From positions 1 to 64,000 of the forward strand of contig JAHJMN010000092.1 in the NCBI GenBank assembly GCA_018821305.1: a stretch of DNA of 64,000 nucleotides. Direction: 5' to 3'. This document shows positions 1 through 49,950 of this stretch, one piece after another. The position numbers and the translations under genes are program-made. Below the pieces are notes generated by a model. The model was not told where the DNA came from, searched no databases, and saw nothing but the letters and a program-made list of their open reading frames with translations. Numbering within the stretch: the stretch's first letter is position 1; every line of letters begins with the position of its first letter. Source of the DNA: Myxococcota bacterium (GTDB lineage Bacteria; Myxococcota_A; Polyangia; HGW-17).

Positions 1-172
1 AATACCAACTTTTCAAGTTAACGTCTATTTCTATCACAGGACATTAAGAATGAAGACCTTGAAATTATTGTAGTGTTCTGAATAGCATGTTTTCGTAAAC
101 ATGCTCAATTTTGACAAAAATTGAATTTCAGGACACGAACTAAATAGTTACTGTCCTGAAATACAGTTTTTC
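1..172. repeat. Family A dispersed structured repeat, copy A1 plus partial second unit
   Basis: This stretch matches 35163-35312 and 45649-45793 over most of its length. It has an outer stem GTGTTCTGAA/TTCAGGACAC (about 73-136), an inner hairpin with arms AGCATGTTT/AAACATGCT (85-106) and a second hairpin CAATTTT/AAAATTG. After the CACGAACT end and AAAT, a second unit begins with AGTTACTGTCCTGAAATACAG-like sequence and fades out by about 172. The rest of the gap up to 336 is AT-rich and shows no gene. The left end is cut by the window edge. Confidence 0.85.
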
Positions 173-336
173 AAATTTTTTGTCGATTTTTTTTTCCAAC
201 GGATTATTGATCTCATTTCTTTGATGTGCTTTAATGCACATGTACTTGGAAAGAATATTTAATTTAAAAAAATTAGTTAACTTGCCGAAATATTGGCTTT
301 GGGTTTCAAAGCGGCCATGCCAAGAGGTTATGAAGG

Positions 337-9812: not shown

Positions 9813-10196
9813 AAATCCTTAGAACCCCTATACGCTGGTTATATAAAAATTCTTCTTTTAACTGTATTTTCTCTTTTTTATTTTCCTGATCTGTTTTAAC
9901 ATTTCTCCGGAGAATGCAGCAATTTATAAACAGCCCATATCTGTTTAATGAACAGGCAAATACCGGGATGTTTCCAAAGAAAAGTCTGAGTATTTTAGAC
10001 TACTTTTCCGTTGCGGTTCAAATGGTTCTATGATATAAATAGCGTTCTTGTAAACTCTTTGAAAACTAAGGAGTTTTTCCTGGTGACGAATAATTAGTTA
10101 ATGTCCTGTCAGGATTTTTTAAGAAATCCTTTGCGAAGCGAATTACAGGACAAGAGAAATATACAGTTCATATCGTTTCCCTTTATGGAGGTTCCC
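9813..10196. other. Intergenic gap before the giant TPR gene; contains repeat A4
   Basis: The first 280 bases are AT-rich, and I see no gene or convincing terminator in them. Bases 10096-10155 are a family A unit. The promoter of the giant gene should lie here, but no clear -35/-10 pair stands out. Confidence 0.6.
10096..10155. repeat. Family A repeat, copy A4 (cloverleaf module only)
   Basis: Single module with outer stem TGTCCTGT/ACAGGACA, inner hairpin AGGATTT/AAATCCT and a second GAA-triloop hairpin ending GCGAA. TAATTA precedes it, the same hexamer that flanks copy A5 at 26674. The unit would be translated if the downstream frame started at its first TTG or ATG, so it argues for a later start of the TPR gene. 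Confidence 0.8.
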
Positions 10197-13100
10197 GTGA
10201 CTGACTTCAGAATTGAAGACCTTGTAATTTCAATTGATGAAACCCTTGAAGGCGATGCCGCTGAATGGCTTGCTAAAGCAGAAGGCTTTGAAGAAGAAGG
10301 AAATCTTCCGAAAGCAATGGATGCCTATAACAGATCCGTCAAAGCCTCAGCGGACAATATGGTAGGACCTCGAATCAAGCAGGCCGGCATATTCCTCAAA
10401 ATGGAACGCTGGAACCAGTATGTTGACGCTTTAAACGATGTTTCCAAGCGTCTCCCGGACGAAATGCTTGATGAAAAAGTTGAACTGATAAAAATCTCGA
10501 TACCAGTTATTCGCGATAAAATGAAGGCCCAACCAAAGGTAATGGATGCTTATAAACGCATTCTTGAAATAAAACCCGACGATGAGGATGCTTTTGGGGA
10601 GCTTGTTGAACTCATAAAATCCGCTAAACGCTGGCCGGATCTTGTAAAACTTTATCAGTCACGCCTCGAAACAATTACTGATGACTATGAAAAAATCCCT
10701 GTCCTTCAGGAAATTGCTCGTATTTACAACGAGGATATGAACAATAAAAGAGAAGCTGTAAAGGCTTTTGAAGCTCTTTTAGAAGTTGATACTTATAATG
10801 CTGATGCTATTGCTCACCTTAAAGAAATGTATGAGCAATCCAGAGACTATGATAGCCTCATAGTCTTATATCGCAAGGAGATGGAAACCATTAACGATGG
10901 TGATCTCCTGCGTGAAAAATCAATAGAACTCGCGCAAATGGCTTCCACAAGGGTAAAAAACCCCGACACTCTTGTGGAGTTATGGCAGAATGTTCTGGAT
11001 ATTGATCCCGAAAACCTTGATGCTCTTGAAAACCTGGAAACACTGCACGAACGTAACAAGAATTTCGAGAAGGTAGCTGAAATCAGCGAAAAAATGCTCG
11101 AATTTCTTGATGATGAGAAAAAGAAGATTGCCCTCTGTACCAGACTTGCTCCTATTTATCAGGACAAACTGGAAAATGCTGAAAAAGCAGCAGAAATATG
11201 GAAAATGCTTCTTGAAATGGATCCTCAGAATCGCCGGGCACAGGATTCCATTAAAAAACTTCTTATTGATTCTAAAGAATGGAACGCTCTCGAGGTATTA
11301 TTTACCGAGTGGGATAAACTGGAAGAATACATCAGGATTATCAGCAAGGAAGCAGATTCTGAATCAACAGATGAAGGAAAAATAAGTTTACTCTTCAGGG
11401 AAGCCCGCATCTGGCGTCTTAACCTGGATAAAGCAGATCGGGCTGTCAAAGCCTATGAAAAAATCCTGACGGTTGATGATAATAATCTTGAAGCTGCGGA
11501 AGCTCTCATTGATCTCTACGTGGAAAGCAGTCAACATAAGAAACTGCCTCAGGTTCTGGAAATCCGGATCAAACACACGGAAGATGAGTTTACAAAAAGA
11601 GAGCGGATGGAAGAACTTGCTTCAGTGTATGAGGAGCATATTAAAGATAAAGAATCAGCATTCAGTTGGTACGCAGATGCGTTCAGCCTGGATCCTCTCT
11701 CTGAAAATATCCGTTTAAAAATGCAGGAGCTTGCGGGATCCGTTAAAGATGGCTGGGAAAAACTTGTTAAATCTTACACTGATGGAGTAGAGAAAATTAC
11801 TGCTGAAGTTGATTCTCTTCCACTTCTTATTGTTATTGCTAAAGCACAGGAAAATGAGCTCGACAAAACAGCGGATACTCTTGTAACTTGTAAGAAAATC
11901 CTTGAAATTGAGCCTTCGAATATTGATGCTCTCGACGCATGTGAGAGGATCTACCGCGCAAAACAGGATTGGGCGAGCCTCCTTGAGATTTATACAAGTA
12001 AAATTGATCTGGCTGCCGATGACGAAGAAAGAAAGACTCTTTACTGGAACAAAGCTGAAATCTTTGATTCCCTTATGGAAAAGCCTCAGGAAGCTGTTGA
12101 TTGTTACATAGCTGTTCTGGATTTCATCCCGGATCACATTGAAAGTCTTAATCAACTTGACGCTTTATATCTCAGACTTGAAAAGTGGGAAGACCTCAGT
12201 GAAACTATTGAAAAAGAACTTGATCTTACAAATGATGAGGCAAGTCGAGTTGAACTGAAGTTCCGTTGGTCAGAGCTTCAGGAGAAGTACCTTGATAAAG
12301 TATCTGATGCAATAGATGGTTATCGCGAAGTTCTGTCCTGGAATAACGGACATGAGCCTTCAAGAGTTAAACTTGAGAAACATCTCGAAGACGAAGATCT
12401 CGAGGTTCGACGCAACGCAGCAGATATCCTTGAACCCATTTATGAAATCCTTGCTGAATTTGAGAATCTTGTCCGGGTTCACGAAATTCAGGCAGAAACC
12501 GAAGATGATTTCGAGCGGAAACTTGAACTTCTTCTCACGATAGGCCGGATTTTAGCGGAAAACATCGGTGAGCCTTCAAGGGCCTTCGATGCTTATTCAA
12601 GAGCTCTTATTCACAATCCTGAAAGCGAAGAAGCTCGCAATCGTCTTGAAGGGATAGCAGAAGTTGAAGAAAAATGGCCTGAGACTCTGAGCGTCTATAA
12701 ACTCATTTTAAAGAATGAGGATCTTTCCGAGGACATCAAAAAGGTAATTAATATCAGAGCGGCTCAGATTGCAAGTGAGAAACTTGAACTTGAGGAAGAC
12801 GCCGTTAAATTTTATTCGGCAGCTCTTGAAATTCAGCCTGATAATGAAATGGTTCTTTCATCTCTTGAAACTCTGTATAGTCAAGCTGAAAAATGGGAAG
12901 AACTTCTTGATATTTCAAAGCGTCAATTGGATCTAGCCTTCGAAATTGATGATCGTCAGACTCTGCGATTCCGATGTGGTCAACTTCTGGATACAAAACT
13001 GAATAGACCCGAAGAAGCTGTCCCCGTTTATGAAGAAATTCTTACGGATGAACCTGAAAATCTCCAGGCTCTGCATGCTCTGGATGCTTTATATCTTAAA

Positions 13101-16100
13101 CTTGAGCAATGGAGTGAATTGGCGGAAAACCTCAATCGTCAATTGGAGCTTTCTGCTGATATGGAAGTTGCGGTTCAGAGTGAACTTCTCAGAAGGCTGG
13201 CAGCTCTGCAACATGAAAAACTCAATGAGACTGTAATGGCCATTGAGACATGGAAACGCGCCCTTGATCTTGATAACTCAGATGAAATTGTTATTTCAAG
13301 TCTTGAAAAACTTCTCGATGATGAAGATAACTCACTGACCGTTGCTCGAATTCTTGAGCCAGTCTATACAGCTCTGGGACGATGGGAGCAACTGATCCGT
13401 GCTTATGAAATTATGAAATCCGCCAGTTTCGATCCGGTGGAACAGATAGATCTTCTAAGTCAGATTGCAACAATTTATGAAGACAGTGGTGAAAAACCCG
13501 CGAGTGCCTTTGAAGCATATTCCCGTGCATTCAGGCTTGATCCTTCAAGGGAAGAGCTTCGTCAGCAGCTCGAACGTCTGGCTGTAAATCTTGGAAACTG
13601 GGAAGAACTCTTCAAACTTTATGAAGAAAAAATTGATGAAAATGAAGATGTGGAAATTGCACTGACACTTCAGACTAGAATTGCTGAGCTCCTTGCTAAT
13701 GCTGTTGGCGATGTAGAAAGAGCAGCAAAAGCGTATGAAAAACTTCTGGAAATAAAACCGGATTACATACCTGCAGTAGACGCGATTGAAGAACTGTTCC
13801 GAAATAATGATGATATTCCCCGGATGGTTCAGGCAATTCTGAAAAAGGTCGAGCTTGTTTTTGACCCCACTGAAAAGAAAGTCCTCGCATTCCGTGCTGC
13901 AGATATTCAACTCAACCAACTTGAGAAAAAGGAAGACGCAATTGCAACATATCGTCTGATTCTTGAAATTGACGATACTGACATTGATGCACTACAGCAC
14001 CTTGAAACTATTTTTGTTCAGGATGGTGACTGGGATAATCTTAAAGATGTCTATGCAAGAAAAGCTGATCTTGCGCCATCTCTGGAAGAAAAGAAAAATA
14101 TGCTTTATATCCTCGGTCAGGTATATGACGAGGAAATTAAAGACATCGAAAAAGCAATTGAAACCTATGAACGAGTTCTCGATGAAGACTCCATGGATGA
14201 TGTTGCTCTTCAAAAACTTGATAATTTATATGAAAGAGCAGAAAAATGGCAGGAACTCATTAATATTCTGGAAATTGAAATTCAGAATGCAATGAGTGAT
14301 GAGCATGTAGCATCTATCAAGTTGCGTCTTGCCCGTATCCATGAACTGAAACTTCAGGATGTTACTACAGCAGTGCCAATTTACGGTGAAGCGATTAATC
14401 TTGATGAATCCAATGGTGAAATCATAGTTAATCTAACCCGAGTACTGAATGGCGGAGAAGAAAATACAGAAATCGAATACTCTGCTGACGATCGACTGGC
14501 CGCAGCAAATCTACTTGATACATATTATTCAAGATTCCAGGATGCATCCAATCTTGTAGCCGTATTGAATGTTATGGTTACACAGGTTGATGATGATTAT
14601 GAAAAAGTAAATTTACTCCATCGACTTGTTGAAATTCATGAGCTTCAACTGGATAATCCAGGAAATGCACGTGTTGATATGGGTCGTGCGATTCTGATTG
14701 ACTGGTTAAATGAAAAAACGCTTATGGAGATTGAGCGTTTATCGGCAATTACAGGTGAATGGAACTGGCTCATAAATACTTATGATGAAGTTCTGAAAAA
14801 AGCCTCTGATGATGAAGAAAAAATCAGATTCCTCCTGGCAATAACTCGAGTTTATGAAGAGGAGCTTTCAGATCTGCCTTCGGCAACAAAACGTTTGCTC
14901 TCCATACTTGAAATCGATAAAGAAAATGAGAGTGCCCTTCGTGGCCTGGATCGTCTTTATGTCAAACAGGAATTGTGGGACAAGCTTACTGAAATACTAC
15001 GAATGGAAATTGAAGTTATTTCGGATCCATCGGAAATTCTTGAATTCAGAAGTCGCCTTGCACAACTTCTCGTAACCTACCTGCAAAAACCAATTGATGC
15101 GGTTACCGCGTACAAAGAACTCCTTGAAGAAGCACCAGATTTTGAAGGTGCTAGAAATGGTCTTGAGGAATTACTCAGGACGGGAATAGTCCCCGCAGAG
15201 ATTTATGGAATCCTTGAACCCCTGTACCGTGGGGATTCCATGTGGGAAAGACTCGTAGATATATCAGAAGTTTATTTGAGTTATTTGAAGGATGTTTTTG
15301 AGCGCGTTAGTTTACTGAAAACCATTTGCGATCTCCATGAGAATTATCTGGCAGATCCGGAGGCTGCATTCCGCACTTTCGCAAGAGCCTTTGATGAAAC
15401 TGTGGATGATCCGGAAGTTAATGACAGGCTGGAAGAGCTTGCCGGAAGACTGTCTTTATGGATGGATCTGACTGAAGTTTATGCAAAAGGTGCACAAAAT
15501 CAGACCAGACTTGCAAGAACTGATGAAGAAAATGCCGAGGATCACAGAATTTCCGCTGTTACCATATGGTTGAAAAATGCCAGAGTATTTGAGGATGAAC
15601 TTCATGATCCGTCAGGAGCTGAAACTTCAAACCTTGAAGTTTTGAAAATCGAAGTTGCAAACTTCACAGCACTTGAATCCCTTGATCGAATTTACTCACA
15701 AAATATGATGTATCCCGAACTGTCGGGAATTCTTTCCCGGCGTGCCGAATCAAGTGAAGATGACTACGATAAAGTAAACTTCTATTTCCGTCTTGCAAAG
15801 TTGGAAGAAACTGAACTTGGAAATCCCCTTAATGCTGTTGCTGCTCTCGAAAACGTCCTTAAAGTCGAAGGCGATAATCTGGAAGCCCTTGAAAATCTGG
15901 AAAGAATCCACTTCTATCTTAATAACTGGAAGGATCTTTACCATGTGTACGAACGCATTACAAAGGCCGTTACCAGCGATGATGAAATAAGTGAAGCATT
16001 GAGCCGTATGGCTAAGATTTCCAGTGACGCCCTTAAAGATCCGGTAAATGCAAAAGGTCTGTGGCTCAAAGTTCTTGAGCTTCGTGGTGAAGATGCCCGT

Positions 16101-19100
16101 GCATTGGCGGAACTTGCGGTTTTGGCGGAAAGAGACGAAAACTGGGATGCCACAGTTGATTTCCTCGATAGAATCACTTCAGCTTCTTATGATACAGATG
16201 AACAGGTTAGAGCCTACCTTAATCTCGGACGCATCTGTCTTGAAAGACTTAATGATCACCGCCGGGCTATGGATGCTTATCTCAACGTAAGAAGTATCCA
16301 GCCTGAAAATATTGAAGCTCTTGAAAGACTTTCACATATCTATAATGAAAGTCAGGCATGGGAAGAACTTGTTGAAGTTCTTGAAGCCCTTGTAATGTTT
16401 GGTATCGACTCTCTTGGTAATCAGAAATTACGTAATCGGTTTGCTCAGATTGGTCATATTGAAAAAGAATATCTTGTTCGTATGGACCGGGCAATTGATG
16501 CATGGGAGAGAGTGCTTGGCGTTATGCCAGGGGATAATGAAGCCCTTGATGCTCTGGAACTTCTTTATACCCAAGAAGAAAACTGGACATCGACCATTAG
16601 AATTCTCGAACTCAAACTTCAGGTTAGTAAATCCCGTGAAACAAGCAGGGAACTTCTGTTCCTTATAGCTGATATCTGGGAAACCCGAATGTACGGAAAT
16701 CACGAGGCATCCGATGCTTTCTTCCGTATCCTGCAATTCGACGAACTGAATGTAAAAGCATTTGAAAATATTGAGAGACTTTATCAATCGCTTAACTACT
16801 GGGATAAACTCATTGAAATTTATCTCAAACGTTATGAAAAACTAGGCGGTCTTGATGAAGATATTCCTGATGACAATAAACCAGAAATCGTATCCCTGCT
16901 TCAACGGGTAGCGGAAGTCTATGAAGACAAGAAGCATGACCGGGAACAGGCCTTCGTTGCTCTTTCCACTGCGTTTGATATCGAAACAACAAACAATATC
17001 ACTGCTGAAAGACTTGAGCGTATTGCGGGTATTGATAATAACTGGGAAGAACTCCTGGATATGTATCAGGAAGCTGTCGACAATGAAGCGGATCGAAAAG
17101 TTAAATGCGATCTGCTTGTTAAAATGGGTAAATGGTACTCAGATCAACTTGAAGACCTTGGTCGAGCCACTGAGGTTCTTAAGCAAGCCCTTAAGTTTGA
17201 TCCGAATTATGGTGGAGTTCACATCGTATTAGCGGAAGTTCATAAGAAAAACAACTCCATCGGTGAATACATCGAAGAACTGAAAAAAGCCCTGGAAGTT
17301 GAAAGTGATCCGAATATCCGGTTTAAAGCAGCTATGGAGCTTGCTTCTGTAAACGAAAAAGATTTCGGTGACCTTATGGAAGCTATCAGGTTCTACAGAA
17401 TTGCTCATGAAGCACTTGGGCATGAACCTACTCCCATTCAGGCTCTTGAAAGACTGCTAGAACAGACTGAAAAATGGCGTGAACTTATTGAAGTTATTCA
17501 AGAACGTGTTACAAAATCCACAAACGACGAAGAAATCATCGATCTGAAACTCCGGATAGCTGAGCTTTATGATGACCGTCGTGAGTCACCGACAAAAGCC
17601 ATCGAAACACTCAATGAAATCCTTGAAATCCGCGAAGATCACTTGCCGGCCATGCGCTATCTTGAAAGATTGTACGACAAGATTGGTGATATGGAAGAGT
17701 ATCTTGGTCTTCTTGAAAGACAGATGAATTTCATAACCAATGCTGATGAGCGCGTGGTTAAGTATCATCAGATGGCGGCCGTCTGGGAAGAGCACTATGA
17801 AAAGGTAGACAAATCCATTGAGTGCTACGAAGCGATTTTAGAGATCAATGATCGCGATGAGCAGGCCTACCGGAATCTGGCCCGTTATTATCGTCAGGAA
17901 AAACGTTGGTCCGACTATATTGATATTATCTACAGACATGTAAACTCCACCTATGATCCATCGGAGAGAGTACGCCTTTACAAGAGTGCAGCGGATGCTC
18001 TTGAGAGGTACCTCAATGAACCGGAAAGAGCCATTGACGCTTATCTTGCAATTCTTGATGAAGAACCCAAAGATATTGAATCATTGACAGCACTTGCAAG
18101 GCTCTATGAAACTCAAGGTAATTGGGAACGCAGCCTTGATATCAGCCAGCAACTCGTTGATCTCGTTGATGACGATCTTGTTAAAAAAGAGCTTTACTTC
18201 CGACTCGGTAAAATATCTGAAGAACAACTCAGAGATCACGATGAAGCGGAAAGATTGTATGCGGAAGCCCTTGCTATCGACCCGTCTTTTGTTGCTGCTC
18301 TGAGGGAACTCAGCAGGATTTACGAAAGTCGTGGAGACTGGATCAAAGCTTCGAGAATGCTTGATACTGCCAAGTCTCATACCTCAAATGTGGTGGATAA
18401 AGCCCAGTATCTATATCAGTCCGGTGTTATTTATTATGATCACCTTGAAGAACCTGCTCAAGCAGCGGTATTATTCAAAGAATGTCTTGATATTGATCCG
18501 GAACATGTTGATGCCGCCCTTAAATATGTTGATATTCTTTGGGATCAGAAAAAATATGATGAAATGTATCCTCATATGCACATGCTTGTACGTAAACTGA
18601 AAGCCCAGAATCCTGAGAAGGAACTGATGCTTAAAATTTACTTCAGGTATGGTACTTCCTGTGAGAAAAAAGGCGAACTGGAAAAAGCACTTAAAGCATA
18701 TAATGAAGCGTTTATACTTGAAAAGACTTCGCTTCCTATTTTACAGGGGCTCGCTTCCGTACATTATTCTCTTGGACAGTGGGATGATGCATTTAATAAA
18801 TATAAGCAAATACTTGTTCATTTACAGGGAAGTGAAGATATAGAGCTTCAGACAGAGATTTATTTCAATCTCGGAAATATCAAAGTTAAACAAAATGATC
18901 TTCACAGAGCGAGAAATCTTTATGACAAAGCTCTTGAAATGAATCCCCTTCATCGAAATACCCTTGAAGCTATGATTGAACTTCATGAGAAAGAGCATAA
19001 CTTCAAAGCTGCGGCGGAAATCAAAGAAAAGATACTGGAAGTAATTCCCTACGACCAGCAGGTTGAATATTTACTTAAACTCGGCGCTTATTATCGTGAA

Positions 19101-20702
19101 AAAGTCAAAGATGACAAAATGGCAATTGATGCTCTGAGTAAGGCTCTTAATATCGATCCTGAAAATACGATAATTATCCATGAGTTGATTGAACTTTATC
19201 AGACTACAGAACAGTGGAAGAGGGTTGCCCGTCTTATGATTAAACTTGCGGAAATGGAAAAAGAACCAATGATCCGCTCGAAAATCTGGTATGGCGTCGC
19301 AGGTATTTTCCGTGAATACATCAACAGTCTTGATGAAGCGGTTGAATATTACAACAAGTGTCTGGACGATGATTACACAAATCTAAAAGCTTTCTCTTAT
19401 GTCGATAAGATTCTGACTCAGAAAAAAGACTGGAAACTTCAGGAACGTGCTTATCGCCAGATGATTCGCCGCATAATGGAAAACAATCCTTCAAATACCG
19501 GACTGCTAGTCAGTCTCTGGCATGCTCTTGGAGAAATTTATCGAAGCCGCCTGCGTGAACTCACAGGTGCAATGAAGGCTTTTGAGACGGCCATCTCACT
19601 GGATCCCAGTGACATTGGACGATATGAAATTCTTGCAGAACTTTACTATCTCAACGGTTCAGATACATTTAAACAGGCAATTGAAACTCTTCAAGAAATT
19701 CTAAACAGGAACCCGAATCACAACGAGGCTCTCAAGCAACTGTACAGACTTTATATTGAAACCCGCTCTTATGACAGGGCATGGTGTATGTCCAGTGTTC
19801 TTAACTCCCTGCGCATAGCTGAACAGGAAGAAATGAGCTTCTACAACCAGTATAAACCTCAGGGGTTCATAAAACTGCAAAACCGCTTCACTGATGATAT
19901 CTGGGGAAATGTAATTACTTCATCCAAACAGGATATGTTCCTGCGTCATATCGTTGCCAATATTTCCGGTCCCATAAGTATGGCCAAAGGAAAAACGTTC
20001 AAGGCAATGAATATAAACAGAAAATTACGCCAGGAACCTTCACCGGATGCACCGACTTTCACTCAGATATTCTTCTATCTCGCGGAAAAACTTGGAGTAG
20101 AAGTTCCTGAAACATACCTTCTCACAGAACAACGCGGTACTTTCAGTCACTTTGTTGCAGTAGAAAAAGGACAGCGCACTCCGATAATGACCGTTGGCCT
20201 CGATATGCTTCGTGGTCATATGGAAAAAGATCTCGGGTATTATATCGCTAAAGAGCTCACTTATATGAGACCGGAAAACTATCTCATAAAACTCTGCGCT
20301 TCTCCTGGGGAATTTAACCTCTATGTACTCGGTGCAATTCGCCTGGTAAATCCGAACATTCCTCTCCCGGGTGATGCCAATGTTTTAGTATCCACAGCTC
20401 AGCAACTTGCACAGATTCTGCCCAGGGCAAATCAGGAAGTTTTAGCGGATGTAGTTAATAAAATGTTCATGGCTGGTCATATTCCCAACTTTAATGAATA
20501 TATGATGGGTGTTGAATTGACGTCCCATCGGGCTGGACTTTCTGCAATTCAGGATCTGGACACTTGTCTTGCTGTTATTCAGTCTGAGCCCATGGTTCAG
20601 GGTGGAGCTTCCAATCAGATCAAGAAAGAATCCATCATCAGGTTTGCCACAAGCGATCAGTTCTTCGATTTAAGGCGAAACCTTGGGGTGGCCATAGGAT
20701 AG
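10197..20702 (+). CDS. Giant tetratricopeptide-repeat protein (3,501 aa) with M48-like degenerate C-terminal domain
   Basis: Almost the whole protein is an array of TPR helices. Modules of about 70-75 residues recur with a W-x-x-L ... AL-x-x-L-x-x-LY pattern, for example LDALYLKLEQW and LEALENLERIHFYLNNW. The last 330 residues differ. There, GHMEKDLGYYIAKELTYMRPEN and a later TSHRAGLSAIQDLDTCLAVI segment follow the layout of M48-type metallopeptidase domains (HExxH helix, then E-x-x-DRAGL), but the zinc-binding HExxH is replaced by AKELT, so proteolysis is unlikely. No signal peptide, so it is probably a cytoplasmic scaffold. The GTG at 10197 is preferred because GGAGG sits five bases upstream; earlier starts fall inside repeat A4. 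A lipoprotein and a GRAM-like membrane protein follow within a few bases. Function unknown. Confidence 0.9.
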   Translation: MTDFRIEDLVISIDETLEGDAAEWLAKAEGFEEEGNLPKAMDAYNRSVKASADNMVGPRIKQAGIFLKMERWNQYVDALNDVSKRLPDEMLDEKVELIKISIPVIRDKMKAQPKVMDAYKRILEIKPDDEDAFGELVELIKSAKRWPDLVKLYQSRLETITDDYEKIPVLQEIARIYNEDMNNKREAVKAFEALLEVDTYNADAIAHLKEMYEQSRDYDSLIVLYRKEMETINDGDLLREKSIELAQMASTRVKNPDTLVELWQNVLDIDPENLDALENLETLHERNKNFEKVAEISEKMLEFLDDEKKKIALCTRLAPIYQDKLENAEKAAEIWKMLLEMDPQNRRAQDSIKKLLIDSKEWNALEVLFTEWDKLEEYIRIISKEADSESTDEGKISLLFREARIWRLNLDKADRAVKAYEKILTVDDNNLEAAEALIDLYVESSQHKKLPQVLEIRIKHTEDEFTKRERMEELASVYEEHIKDKESAFSWYADAFSLDPLSENIRLKMQELAGSVKDGWEKLVKSYTDGVEKITAEVDSLPLLIVIAKAQENELDKTADTLVTCKKILEIEPSNIDALDACERIYRAKQDWASLLEIYTSKIDLAADDEERKTLYWNKAEIFDSLMEKPQEAVDCYIAVLDFIPDHIESLNQLDALYLRLEKWEDLSETIEKELDLTNDEASRVELKFRWSELQEKYLDKVSDAIDGYREVLSWNNGHEPSRVKLEKHLEDEDLEVRRNAADILEPIYEILAEFENLVRVHEIQAETEDDFERKLELLLTIGRILAENIGEPSRAFDAYSRALIHNPESEEARNRLEGIAEVEEKWPETLSVYKLILKNEDLSEDIKKVINIRAAQIASEKLELEEDAVKFYSAALEIQPDNEMVLSSLETLYSQAEKWEELLDISKRQLDLAFEIDDRQTLRFRCGQLLDTKLNRPEEAVPVYEEILTDEPENLQALHALDALYLKLEQWSELAENLNRQLELSADMEVAVQSELLRRLAALQHEKLNETVMAIETWKRALDLDNSDEIVISSLEKLLDDEDNSLTVARILEPVYTALGRWEQLIRAYEIMKSASFDPVEQIDLLSQIATIYEDSGEKPASAFEAYSRAFRLDPSREELRQQLERLAVNLGNWEELFKLYEEKIDENEDVEIALTLQTRIAELLANAVGDVERAAKAYEKLLEIKPDYIPAVDAIEELFRNNDDIPRMVQAILKKVELVFDPTEKKVLAFRAADIQLNQLEKKEDAIATYRLILEIDDTDIDALQHLETIFVQDGDWDNLKDVYARKADLAPSLEEKKNMLYILGQVYDEEIKDIEKAIETYERVLDEDSMDDVALQKLDNLYERAEKWQELINILEIEIQNAMSDEHVASIKLRLARIHELKLQDVTTAVPIYGEAINLDESNGEIIVNLTRVLNGGEENTEIEYSADDRLAAANLLDTYYSRFQDASNLVAVLNVMVTQVDDDYEKVNLLHRLVEIHELQLDNPGNARVDMGRAILIDWLNEKTLMEIERLSAITGEWNWLINTYDEVLKKASDDEEKIRFLLAITRVYEEELSDLPSATKRLLSILEIDKENESALRGLDRLYVKQELWDKLTEILRMEIEVISDPSEILEFRSRLAQLLVTYLQKPIDAVTAYKELLEEAPDFEGARNGLEELLRTGIVPAEIYGILEPLYRGDSMWERLVDISEVYLSYLKDVFERVSLLKTICDLHENYLADPEAAFRTFARAFDETVDDPEVNDRLEELAGRLSLWMDLTEVYAKGAQNQTRLARTDEENAEDHRISAVTIWLKNARVFEDELHDPSGAETSNLEVLKIEVANFTALESLDRIYSQNMMYPELSGILSRRAESSEDDYDKVNFYFRLAKLEETELGNPLNAVAALENVLKVEGDNLEALENLERIHFYLNNWKDLYHVYERITKAVTSDDEISEALSRMAKISSDALKDPVNAKGLWLKVLELRGEDARALAELAVLAERDENWDATVDFLDRITSASYDTDEQVRAYLNLGRICLERLNDHRRAMDAYLNVRSIQPENIEALERLSHIYNESQAWEELVEVLEALVMFGIDSLGNQKLRNRFAQIGHIEKEYLVRMDRAIDAWERVLGVMPGDNEALDALELLYTQEENWTSTIRILELKLQVSKSRETSRELLFLIADIWETRMYGNHEASDAFFRILQFDELNVKAFENIERLYQSLNYWDKLIEIYLKRYEKLGGLDEDIPDDNKPEIVSLLQRVAEVYEDKKHDREQAFVALSTAFDIETTNNITAERLERIAGIDNNWEELLDMYQEAVDNEADRKVKCDLLVKMGKWYSDQLEDLGRATEVLKQALKFDPNYGGVHIVLAEVHKKNNSIGEYIEELKKALEVESDPNIRFKAAMELASVNEKDFGDLMEAIRFYRIAHEALGHEPTPIQALERLLEQTEKWRELIEVIQERVTKSTNDEEIIDLKLRIAELYDDRRESPTKAIETLNEILEIREDHLPAMRYLERLYDKIGDMEEYLGLLERQMNFITNADERVVKYHQMAAVWEEHYEKVDKSIECYEAILEINDRDEQAYRNLARYYRQEKRWSDYIDIIYRHVNSTYDPSERVRLYKSAADALERYLNEPERAIDAYLAILDEEPKDIESLTALARLYETQGNWERSLDISQQLVDLVDDDLVKKELYFRLGKISEEQLRDHDEAERLYAEALAIDPSFVAALRELSRIYESRGDWIKASRMLDTAKSHTSNVVDKAQYLYQSGVIYYDHLEEPAQAAVLFKECLDIDPEHVDAALKYVDILWDQKKYDEMYPHMHMLVRKLKAQNPEKELMLKIYFRYGTSCEKKGELEKALKAYNEAFILEKTSLPILQGLASVHYSLGQWDDAFNKYKQILVHLQGSEDIELQTEIYFNLGNIKVKQNDLHRARNLYDKALEMNPLHRNTLEAMIELHEKEHNFKAAAEIKEKILEVIPYDQQVEYLLKLGAYYREKVKDDKMAIDALSKALNIDPENTIIIHELIELYQTTEQWKRVARLMIKLAEMEKEPMIRSKIWYGVAGIFREYINSLDEAVEYYNKCLDDDYTNLKAFSYVDKILTQKKDWKLQERAYRQMIRRIMENNPSNTGLLVSLWHALGEIYRSRLRELTGAMKAFETAISLDPSDIGRYEILAELYYLNGSDTFKQAIETLQEILNRNPNHNEALKQLYRLYIETRSYDRAWCMSSVLNSLRIAEQEEMSFYNQYKPQGFIKLQNRFTDDIWGNVITSSKQDMFLRHIVANISGPISMAKGKTFKAMNINRKLRQEPSPDAPTFTQIFFYLAEKLGVEVPETYLLTEQRGTFSHFVAVEKGQRTPIMTVGLDMLRGHMEKDLGYYIAKELTYMRPENYLIKLCASPGEFNLYVLGAIRLVNPNIPLPGDANVLVSTAQQLAQILPRANQEVLADVVNKMFMAGHIPNFNEYMMGVELTSHRAGLSAIQDLDTCLAVIQSEPMVQGGASNQIKKESIIRFATSDQFFDLRRNLGVAIG

Positions 20703-26610: not shown

Positions 26611-26992
26611 AGACTGCTTCATGAGTAAAAGGATCGAAACGTAAAAAGTGAATGTTTTCATCACAATCCTTTGTAATTAGTTACTGTCCTGAAATACAGT
26701 TTTTGAAATTTTTGGACAGTTTTTCCCTCAGGACAGTAACCGCAAGGTGTTGAATTTACTAGTAGTGTCCTGTTAGGATTTTTAATAAAATCCTTCGCGA
26801 AGCGAATTACAGGACACGAACTAATTATGTATTGATATTGAATGTTTACGCTCTGAACCTGAACCTGAACCTGTTTTCCTGACTTCCTGTTAAAAAATCA
26901 GGAAAAATCAGTAGCAGCAACAGGAAATCAGGGTCTTTCATCTGAAGCTTTTCTCTCAAATTCAACAACAATCGTATTACTCAGGAAGCGGT
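26611..26992. repeat. Family B repeat, copy B2, interrupted by a family A element
   Basis: Reverse orientation relative to B1. The left end is AGACTGCTTCATGAGTAAAAGG and the right end is TATTACTCAGGAAGCGGT. Between them, TTTG-TAATTA is interrupted by repeat A5 and resumes at TAATTA-TG before TTGAATG and the CCTGAA-rich core. Copies at 40186, 3094, 32940 and 52475 are uninterrupted at this point. The right end overlaps the last codons and stop of the HAD phosphatase gene. Confidence 0.85.
26674..26827. repeat. Family A repeat, copy A5 (two modules), flanked by TAATTA duplication
   Basis: Complete two-module copy. Module 1 is bounded by a perfect 13-base stem GTTACTGTCCTGA/TCAGGACAGTAAC. A linker CGCAAGGTGTTGAATTTA follows. 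Module 2 has an outer stem GTGTCCTGT/ACAGGACAC enclosing AGGATTTT/AAAATCCT and TTCGC-GAA-GCGAA hairpins. TAATTA occurs at both edges (26674-26679, 26822-26827), and only once at the homologous empty site at 40186-40433. Confidence 0.88.
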
Positions 26993-34649: not shown

Positions 34650-35213
34650 TCAATCTTCCCATTTTGCTTTATCACCCACCTGTAAACCATGACGCGAGGC
34701 AAATCCGCCATTTACCTCGACTACATACATGGAAAGTTTTCCAGGGGATAGAGTGGTTTCATCCAGAGGCTTTGCATTTTTTATTACTGCAACAACGGTG
34801 CGGTTTTTATCAAGGAAAATCATATCCAAAGGAATAAGAGTGTTTGCCATCCAGAAGCCCACCTGTTGCTCCTGTTTGTATATGAAGATCATACCCTCAT
34901 CTTCGGGCATTGACTTTCTCCACATGAGACCAATTTGATGCTGAATTGGAGTTATGGCCTTTTGCACTGTAATCACTACAGGACGTGGGTTAGATTGCCT
35001 TGTGAATGTCACGGATGTTCTTGGCAGATCAAGCTGCGGTCCATGCGTGCGTTTTTCCTGAATCACTTCGGAGCCTCCCGGATCACCGGGATTATATACA
35101 GATTTCTTACATGATACAAAAAAAACAACAGGAAAAATAATGACAGAGATAATGAATGGTTTAGTTAATGTCCTGTAATATGATCTTTTCAAGCTTACAC
35201 CAAAATTCGACAA
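34650..35213 (-). CDS. DUF192 lipoprotein with 5' end split by a family A element
   Basis: About 187 codons open from a TTG at 35213 (another TTG at 35192). The lipoprotein core (TKPFIISVIIFPVVFFVSC) is followed by a DUF192 domain: HQIGLMWRKSMPEDEGMIFI, FWMANTLIPLDMIFLD. The usual ATG and first codons are missing. They lie beyond a 150-bp repeat at 35163-35312: on the minus strand ATG at 35342 reads MKTISSVKPF and then meets a TGA inside the repeat. Deleting the repeat and one flanking copy of GAATGGTTT restores MKTISSVKPFIISVIIFP in frame. So this is either a gene restarted from within the element (MKRSYYRTLTKPFI is a usable signal) or a recent pseudogene. Confidence 0.75.
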   Translation of the reverse strand: MSNFGVSLKRSYYRTLTKPFIISVIIFPVVFFVSCKKSVYNPGDPGGSEVIQEKRTHGPQLDLPRTSVTFTRQSNPRPVVITVQKAITPIQHQIGLMWRKSMPEDEGMIFIYKQEQQVGFWMANTLIPLDMIFLDKNRTVVAVIKNAKPLDETTLSPGKLSMYVVEVNGGFASRHGLQVGDKAKWED

Positions 35214-35321
35214 AGGACATTAAGAATGAAGACCTTGAAAATATTGTAGTGTTCTGAATAGTATGTTTTCGTAAACATGCTCAATTTTGATAAAAATTGA
35301 ATTTCAGAACACGAATGGTTT
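35154..35321. repeat. Family A repeat, copy A2, with direct-repeat flanks inside a gene
   Basis: The element (35163-35312) starts AGTTAATGTCCTG and ends TTCAGAACAC. GAATGGTTT occurs at both edges (35154-35162 and 35313-35321). The module 2 outer stem GTGTTCTGAA/TTCAGAACAC is perfectly paired here, while A1 has one wobble pair at the same place. It interrupts codons of the DUF192 lipoprotein signal peptide. Confidence 0.9.
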
Positions 35322-40185: not shown

Positions 40186-40433
40186 TAGACCGCTTGCGGA
40201 ATAAAAGGATCGAAACGGGAAAAGTACTTGTTTTCATCCTGCCATTTGTAATTATGCTTTGATGTTGAATGTTTATGACCTGCGCCTGTCCCTGTTTACC
40301 TGACTTCCTGAGTTCCTGTTAAAAAAAATCAGGTAACCAGGAAATCAGTAGCAGGAACAGGAAAATCAGGGGCTCTTTCCTGAAGATTTTCTTTAGAATA
40401 ACTCACAATCTTATTACTCAGGAAGCGGTATAG
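40186..40433. repeat. Family B repeat, copy B4
   Basis: 248 bp from TTAGACCGCTTGCGGAATAAAAGG to ACTCAGGAAGCGGTATAG, starting one base after the murJ stop codon. This copy shows the undisturbed TTTGTAATTATGC site at which copy B2 carries a family A insertion. Confidence 0.88.
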
Positions 40434-40521
40434 TAATAAATTCAACACCTTGCGGTTACTGTCCTGAGCGAAAATCCGGCGAAAAAATTGAAAAATTGAA
40501 TTTCAGGACACGAACTAATTA
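40434..40521. repeat. Family A repeat, copy A6 (module 1 and linker)
   Basis: Reverse orientation. The CACCTTGCGG linker, then GTTACTGTCCTGA paired with TTTCAGGACACGAACT, ending in TAATTA. The TAA of that hexamer, read on the minus strand, is the stop codon of the next gene. Directly abuts copy B4. Confidence 0.8.
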
Positions 40522-49784: not shown

Positions 49785-49950
49785 TATTTCAGGACAGTAA
49801 CTATTTAGATCGTGTCCTGTAATTCGCTTCGCGAAGAAATTTATTAAAATTTCTAACAGGCCACTAGTAATATTTTAAACACCTTGCGGTTACTGTCCTG
49901 AGCAAAAATTGGGCGAAAAAATTGATTTTCGGTATTTCAGCACAGTAACT
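49785..49950. repeat. Family A repeat, copy A8 (two modules plus adjacent partial unit)
   Basis: Reverse orientation. Module 2 shows GTGTCCTGT/ACAGGCCAC and hairpins AGAAATTT/AAATTTCT and TTCGC-GAA-GCGAA; module 1 shows GTTACTGTCCTGA with GCACAGTAAC. A partial second unit joins at the AAAT junction exactly as in A1. It ends about 20 bases before the kinase-LRR start codon. Confidence 0.85.

Follow-up and report, generated by a model that had tools for sequence, protein, structure and literature searches.

The short repeats of family A in this genome are very probably MITEs, and an ISNCY-type insertion sequence (IS) of about 1,679 bp resident in the same genome very probably encodes the DDE transposase that recognises their ends. 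One copy is nested inside B2, a repeat of family B at 26611-26992 of the window, by which we mean the whole 64,000-nucleotide stretch analysed. The junctions of this insertion read ...ATCCTTTG-TAATTA-[142 bp]-TAATTA-TGTATTGATATTG, and the 142-bp A inside B2 is bounded by exact TAATTA copies, just as the earlier note had described. The features of the nested insertion and of its uninterrupted counterpart are as follows.

26611 to 26679, plus strand: left part of B2, including the left TAATTA (nhmmer with the B model; rejoined flanks)
26674 to 26679, no strand: left 6-bp target duplication, TAATTA (sequence read; flank statistics)
26680 to 26821, plus strand: family A copy, very probably a MITE, A142 subtype, 142 bp, with ends GTTACTGTCCTGAAATA... 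and ...ACAGGACACGAAC
26822 to 26827, no strand: right 6-bp target duplication, TAATTA (sequence read; flank statistics)
26822 to 26992, plus strand: right part of B2, including the right TAATTA (nhmmer with the B model, model positions 62-241)
40187 to 40429, plus strand: B4, an uninterrupted B copy, with the empty-site TAATTA at 40249-40254

The empty site in B4 reads TTTGTAATTATGC, with a single TAATTA, and more than 35 B copies are continuous across the A insertion point in the part of the genome that was sampled (ten contigs selected by size, 859 kb together with the window, in which A loci were called by HMM). B1, B3 and B5 had been described as likewise uninterrupted; uninterrupted copies are indeed numerous, but not every sibling has the wording of B4, since B5 (52480) reads GTAATTTTAC and B3 reads TTTTAATTATTA. 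When A and one TAATTA are excised by script, B2 matches positions 1-241 of the B model at 168 bits. A second nested case, at C67:32607-33027 with A at C67:32819, uses the same B site with A in the opposite orientation to B, and its siblings read CTTTTTAATTATTAATTG at the empty site; this insertion is an event independent of that in B2. Both B2 and the C67 copy can thus be set against empty sites in uninterrupted B copies. With just 3 of 48 elements situated inside B, no strong preference of A for B can be claimed. B4, which served above as empty-site reference, is directly adjoined at its right end by a truncated A remnant (40431-40521).

Of the 107 A-type loci in the sample, 43 are full length, and 42 of these could be used for flank comparison. 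The check proposed in the earlier note, scoring duplications and consensus at the flanks of A, was run on these 42 copies. A perfect 6-bp duplication was found in 23 of them, compared with a mean of 3.5 and a maximum of 11 under shuffled pairing (2000 shuffles); the signal at register 6 has z = 11.1, and lengths of 2-5 and 7-10 bp gave none comparable. The proposed duplication of 4-6 bp is therefore real, but its length is 6 bp only, and it recurs at this fixed length at multiple loci. Likewise, the target is AT-rich and mostly palindromic as anticipated, although the consensus is TANNTA (first T in 93%, second A in 88% and last A in 95% of cases) and not TAATTA. Sites that depart from the consensus are faithfully duplicated (GAATTA/GAATTA, GATTTA/GATTTA, TTATTA/TTATTA and TATGTA/TATGTA), and since these match within each locus, the variable bases come from the target site rather than from the element itself.

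Family A is short and non-coding, with imperfect terminal inverted repeats (GTTACTGTCCTG and GTTCGTGTCCTG), and occurs as two subtypes of 142 and 153 bp, A142 and A153. Both are built alike: one hairpin module of 61 bp is followed, after a 20- or 31-bp spacer, by another of about 61 bp, and in each module the element end pairs with an inverted inner copy of that end. The modules of the nested copy and the other A copies of the window are listed below.

26680 to 26740, plus strand: first hairpin module of A, 61 bp, in which the outer end and its inverted inner copy pair over 13 bp (GTTACTGTCCTGA/TCAGGACAGTAAC)
26765 to 26817, plus strand: second, two-armed hairpin of A, in which compensatory changes are seen between copies
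49808 to 49949, minus strand: second full-length A142 in the window, duplication TATTTA/TATTTA
35164 to 35316, plus strand: copy of the A153 subtype, duplication GGTTTA/GGTTTT
1 to 196, plus strand: head-to-tail pair, made up of an A153-type copy (1-140), a shared TAAATA (141-146) and a truncated A142 (147-196)

The predicted fold of A is stronger than that of shuffled sequences (z of -5.1 as RNA and -5.9 as DNA), and its stems carry compensatory changes at 6 pairs (32 cells vs 10.1 in shuffles). The hairpins may have been retained for transposase binding or through copying between palindrome arms. A few elements of 59-61 bp carry near-duplications of their own, and the sequences suggest that a single hairpin module of A could move alone.

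Across the genome, the pattern TAATTAGTTACTGTCC occurs 417 times with at most 2 mismatches, against 7 occurrences of the reversed control. Scaling from the sample, in which A makes up 1.3% of the bases, gives about 650 A loci and about 260 full copies, and copy numbers taken from the assembly are lower bounds, with many contigs ending inside A or the ISNCY element (among them C46, C32, C81, C114, C153 and C174). A is almost absent from genes. The window also holds an open frame of 3,533 amino acids, at 10101-20702, and the MurJ encoded in it shares 40-48% identity with the MurJ proteins of uncultured Deltaproteobacteria and Desulfobacterales. The A copy in B2 is 99% identical to C108:3851-3992; together with the estimated 260 or so copies and the absence of a match in the same-genus genome, this leads us to claim a probably recent spread of A.

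The candidate source of the transposase was found by genome-wide searches with the models PF01609, NF033559 and PF13358. PF01609 identified a single gene, at the start of contig C216, which begins inside the element. The right end of the IS lies on this contig downstream of the transposase gene and reads CAGGACAGTAAC followed by TATTTA, and the left end, GTTCGTGTCCTGAAATTAAG, preceded by TANNTA, was read from six other contigs that end in its first 80 bp or so. TANNTA is present at all nine IS junctions seen, where the IS strand reads TATTTA or TAACTA. The assembly has collapsed the IS: none of its contigs spans the full element, and no left and right duplication pair could be matched to one copy. 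Near-identical IS sequence at several contig ends suggests that the assembler merged several recent copies. The transposase matches the ISNCY model NF033593 at 294 bits (E 2e-87, model positions 19-443 of 444), below the curated cut-off of 325. Its frame is open, and D (in DST), D (GDRGF) and E (GVEGNIS) align with those of ISRm17 and of a Marinobacter ISNCY transposase; D150, D355 and E406 are invariant in alignment A3, in keeping with the conserved DDE residues of ISNCY, a group in which an ISDol1 subgroup exists (PMC8147514). A comparison of the transposase with contigs of other genomes confirmed no relative, and a sequence search of the PDB gave no match.

A and the IS have the same two unequal ends (GTTCGTGTCCTG / GTTACTGTCCTG) on matching sides, with identity to GTTACTGTCCTGAAATA over 17 bp on one side and to GTTCGTGTCCTG over 12 bp on the other. 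Inside these ends the two sequences are unrelated, and because only the terminal 12-17 bp are common, the IS copies seen did not give rise to A by simple internal deletion. On the evidence of C216 and the junction contigs, which give a resident element with the same ends and target, the IS is the probable autonomous partner of A. We infer that its enzyme would move A in trans, by a cut-and-paste or a copy-out route. The gene-less A would be recognised at its two unequal ends by the ISNCY-type DDE transposase, cut at GTT.../...AAC and inserted at TANNTA through a staggered cut of 6 bp, producing the direct duplication; the insertion in B2 would have used TAATTA, a site common in B repeats. Transposition by a DDE enzyme acting in trans, as the earlier note had supposed, is the best reading of a 6-bp duplication in a genome that encodes a DDE transposase with matching ends.

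We considered whether A was instead moved by a different, unseen transposase, its likeness to the ISNCY ends being due to convergence or a shared ancestor. Such an origin would agree with the restriction of the likeness to the outermost 12-17 bp and the unrelated interior, and the genome-wide searches covered three transposase models; however, A and the IS agree at both unequal ends, each on the proper side, A has the same 6-bp TANNTA target as every one of the nine IS junctions, and PF01609 found no element besides the IS, which makes a second enzyme unlikely. Highly implausible, in our view, is site-specific recombination at a TAATTA core, as by an integrase or in cassettes, in place of transposition with target duplication. 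No other single site is as frequent as TAATTA, and tandem A copies have one core between them, like a cassette array, but the four off-consensus sites are duplicated faithfully, the core differs between loci while agreeing within each locus, which is the mark of a variable-target duplication, and the gene with matching ends encodes a DDE transposase.

The strong two-hairpin fold, with its compensatory changes at 6 pairs, could also be that of a structured RNA or terminator module kept for its function, mobility being secondary. Against this, A shows no preference for convergent gene ends (9 of 41, vs 21% of intergenic bases), and this lack of enrichment between convergent genes rules against a terminator role; its near-absence from genes is expected from insertion tolerance alone, an Rfam search gave no family near its gathering score, and A was not found in the relatives searched. 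We consider a functional module quite unlikely, and recognition of A by the ISNCY-type transposase is the reading that we retain.

The nesting had also been taken to order the two families in time, and at the level of families this fails. B2 was in place before A entered it, but a B copy at C166:30415-30650 (L121:10415-10650) lies inside an A142 with TA on both sides, and the rejoined flanks match A positions 1-141 at 150 bits; C35:80463 may be a further case of B in A. Because both nestings exist, that in B2 dates one event and not the families, and A and B were mobile over overlapping periods. Nor can an age order be drawn from relatives, since A has no match in the other genomes of the family searched, including the same-genus genome, and B has two short partial matches only in the latter (the other family genomes having also been searched). 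B has the ends AGACCGCTT.../...AAGCGGTCT, and one B insertion, at C166, duplicates TA. Two broken DDE_3 (IS630-type) remnants lie beside B-type ends (L165:1-300 on C10 and L164:1560-2400 on C56), with no intact element seen; as a lead only, this suggests that B may be an IS630-type MITE derived from an IS630-type element.

Copies of A frequently abut. Two A-type ends lie 6 bp apart at 71 places in the genome and at none in the reversed control, and 43 of 48 exact junctions are head-to-tail with one TANNTA in common (binomial p 1e-8, the junctions being not fully independent); in three of the other five, a contig end is no more than about 150 bp away. Since A142 is also found beside A153, and the IS beside A, tandem duplication alone does not account for the abutting copies. 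Head-to-tail arrays that combine A142 with A153, with one TANNTA each, were seen at L096:6362-6662, L115:18501-18948 and L121:15433-15733. Of 512 intergenic TANNTA sites, 62 (12%) flank an A-type end, and 12 are double-ended, for which a rough estimate under random insertion gives about 3-6. Target scarcity, with random reuse of the regenerated TANNTA, explains much of the number of junctions, and on this comparison self-targeting was rejected as its cause. Palindrome instability and assembly bias may lie behind the orientation: inverted neighbours form long palindromes, which are unstable and poorly assembled, and exceptions occur near contig ends, so we do not claim orientation targeting. 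It is conceivable, though doubtful, that the transposase reads an existing end beside TANNTA and sets the orientation of the incoming copy, so that MITEs and IS would build head-to-tail arrays by targeting their own ends, a property that ISRm17-type elements would share.

ISRm17 and related ISNCY elements of Sinorhizobium and Marinobacter are the closest annotated relatives of the partner IS in the plasmid collection, with 27-29% amino acid identity over the whole transposase and D, D and E kept. Their ends, GTGCCCGTCC, resemble GTTCGTGTCC, and the ISRm17 target fits TAGNCTA at six loci, a TA-n-TA site like the TANNTA of A but of 7 bp instead of 6. ISRm17 copies also abut with one target copy in common, as A copies do; among the junctions read in Sinorhizobium plasmids three are head-to-tail and one head-to-head. 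ISRm17 nevertheless differs from the partner IS, transposase identity being below 30%. In pHRC017 (L158, NC_019313.1), three ISRm17-type ISNCY copies stand head-to-tail with a period of about 1,671 bp, neighbours having single TAGNCTA copies in common.

Nested and multimeric MITEs of eukaryotes arise by insertion into the duplicated target of earlier copies. A resembles them in reusing its target but differs in being bacterial and in the head-to-tail order of 43 of its 48 exact junctions. Bacterial MITEs moved in trans by an IS, such as a 187-nt MITE of Microcystis whose presumed mover is an ISL3-type transposase (PMC11448079), are like A short, non-coding and intergenic, with a target duplication and terminal inverted repeats that match a resident IS; the partner of A, by contrast, is of the ISNCY type, and A has two hairpins, each with an inverted inner copy of an end. 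In the open-access literature we found no direct precedent for ISNCY MITEs or for a TANNTA target.

This uncultured bacterium provides a fairly complete case, in which one genome combines a MITE in many copies and its probable autonomous partner with an exact target rule, with empty sites and with nested insertions. It adds TA-n-TA targets and abutting copies to what is known of the poorly described ISNCY group, and A and the IS offer a compact system for testing MITE mobilisation. Both shape the genome and also its assembly, in which contigs repeatedly end in one or the other.
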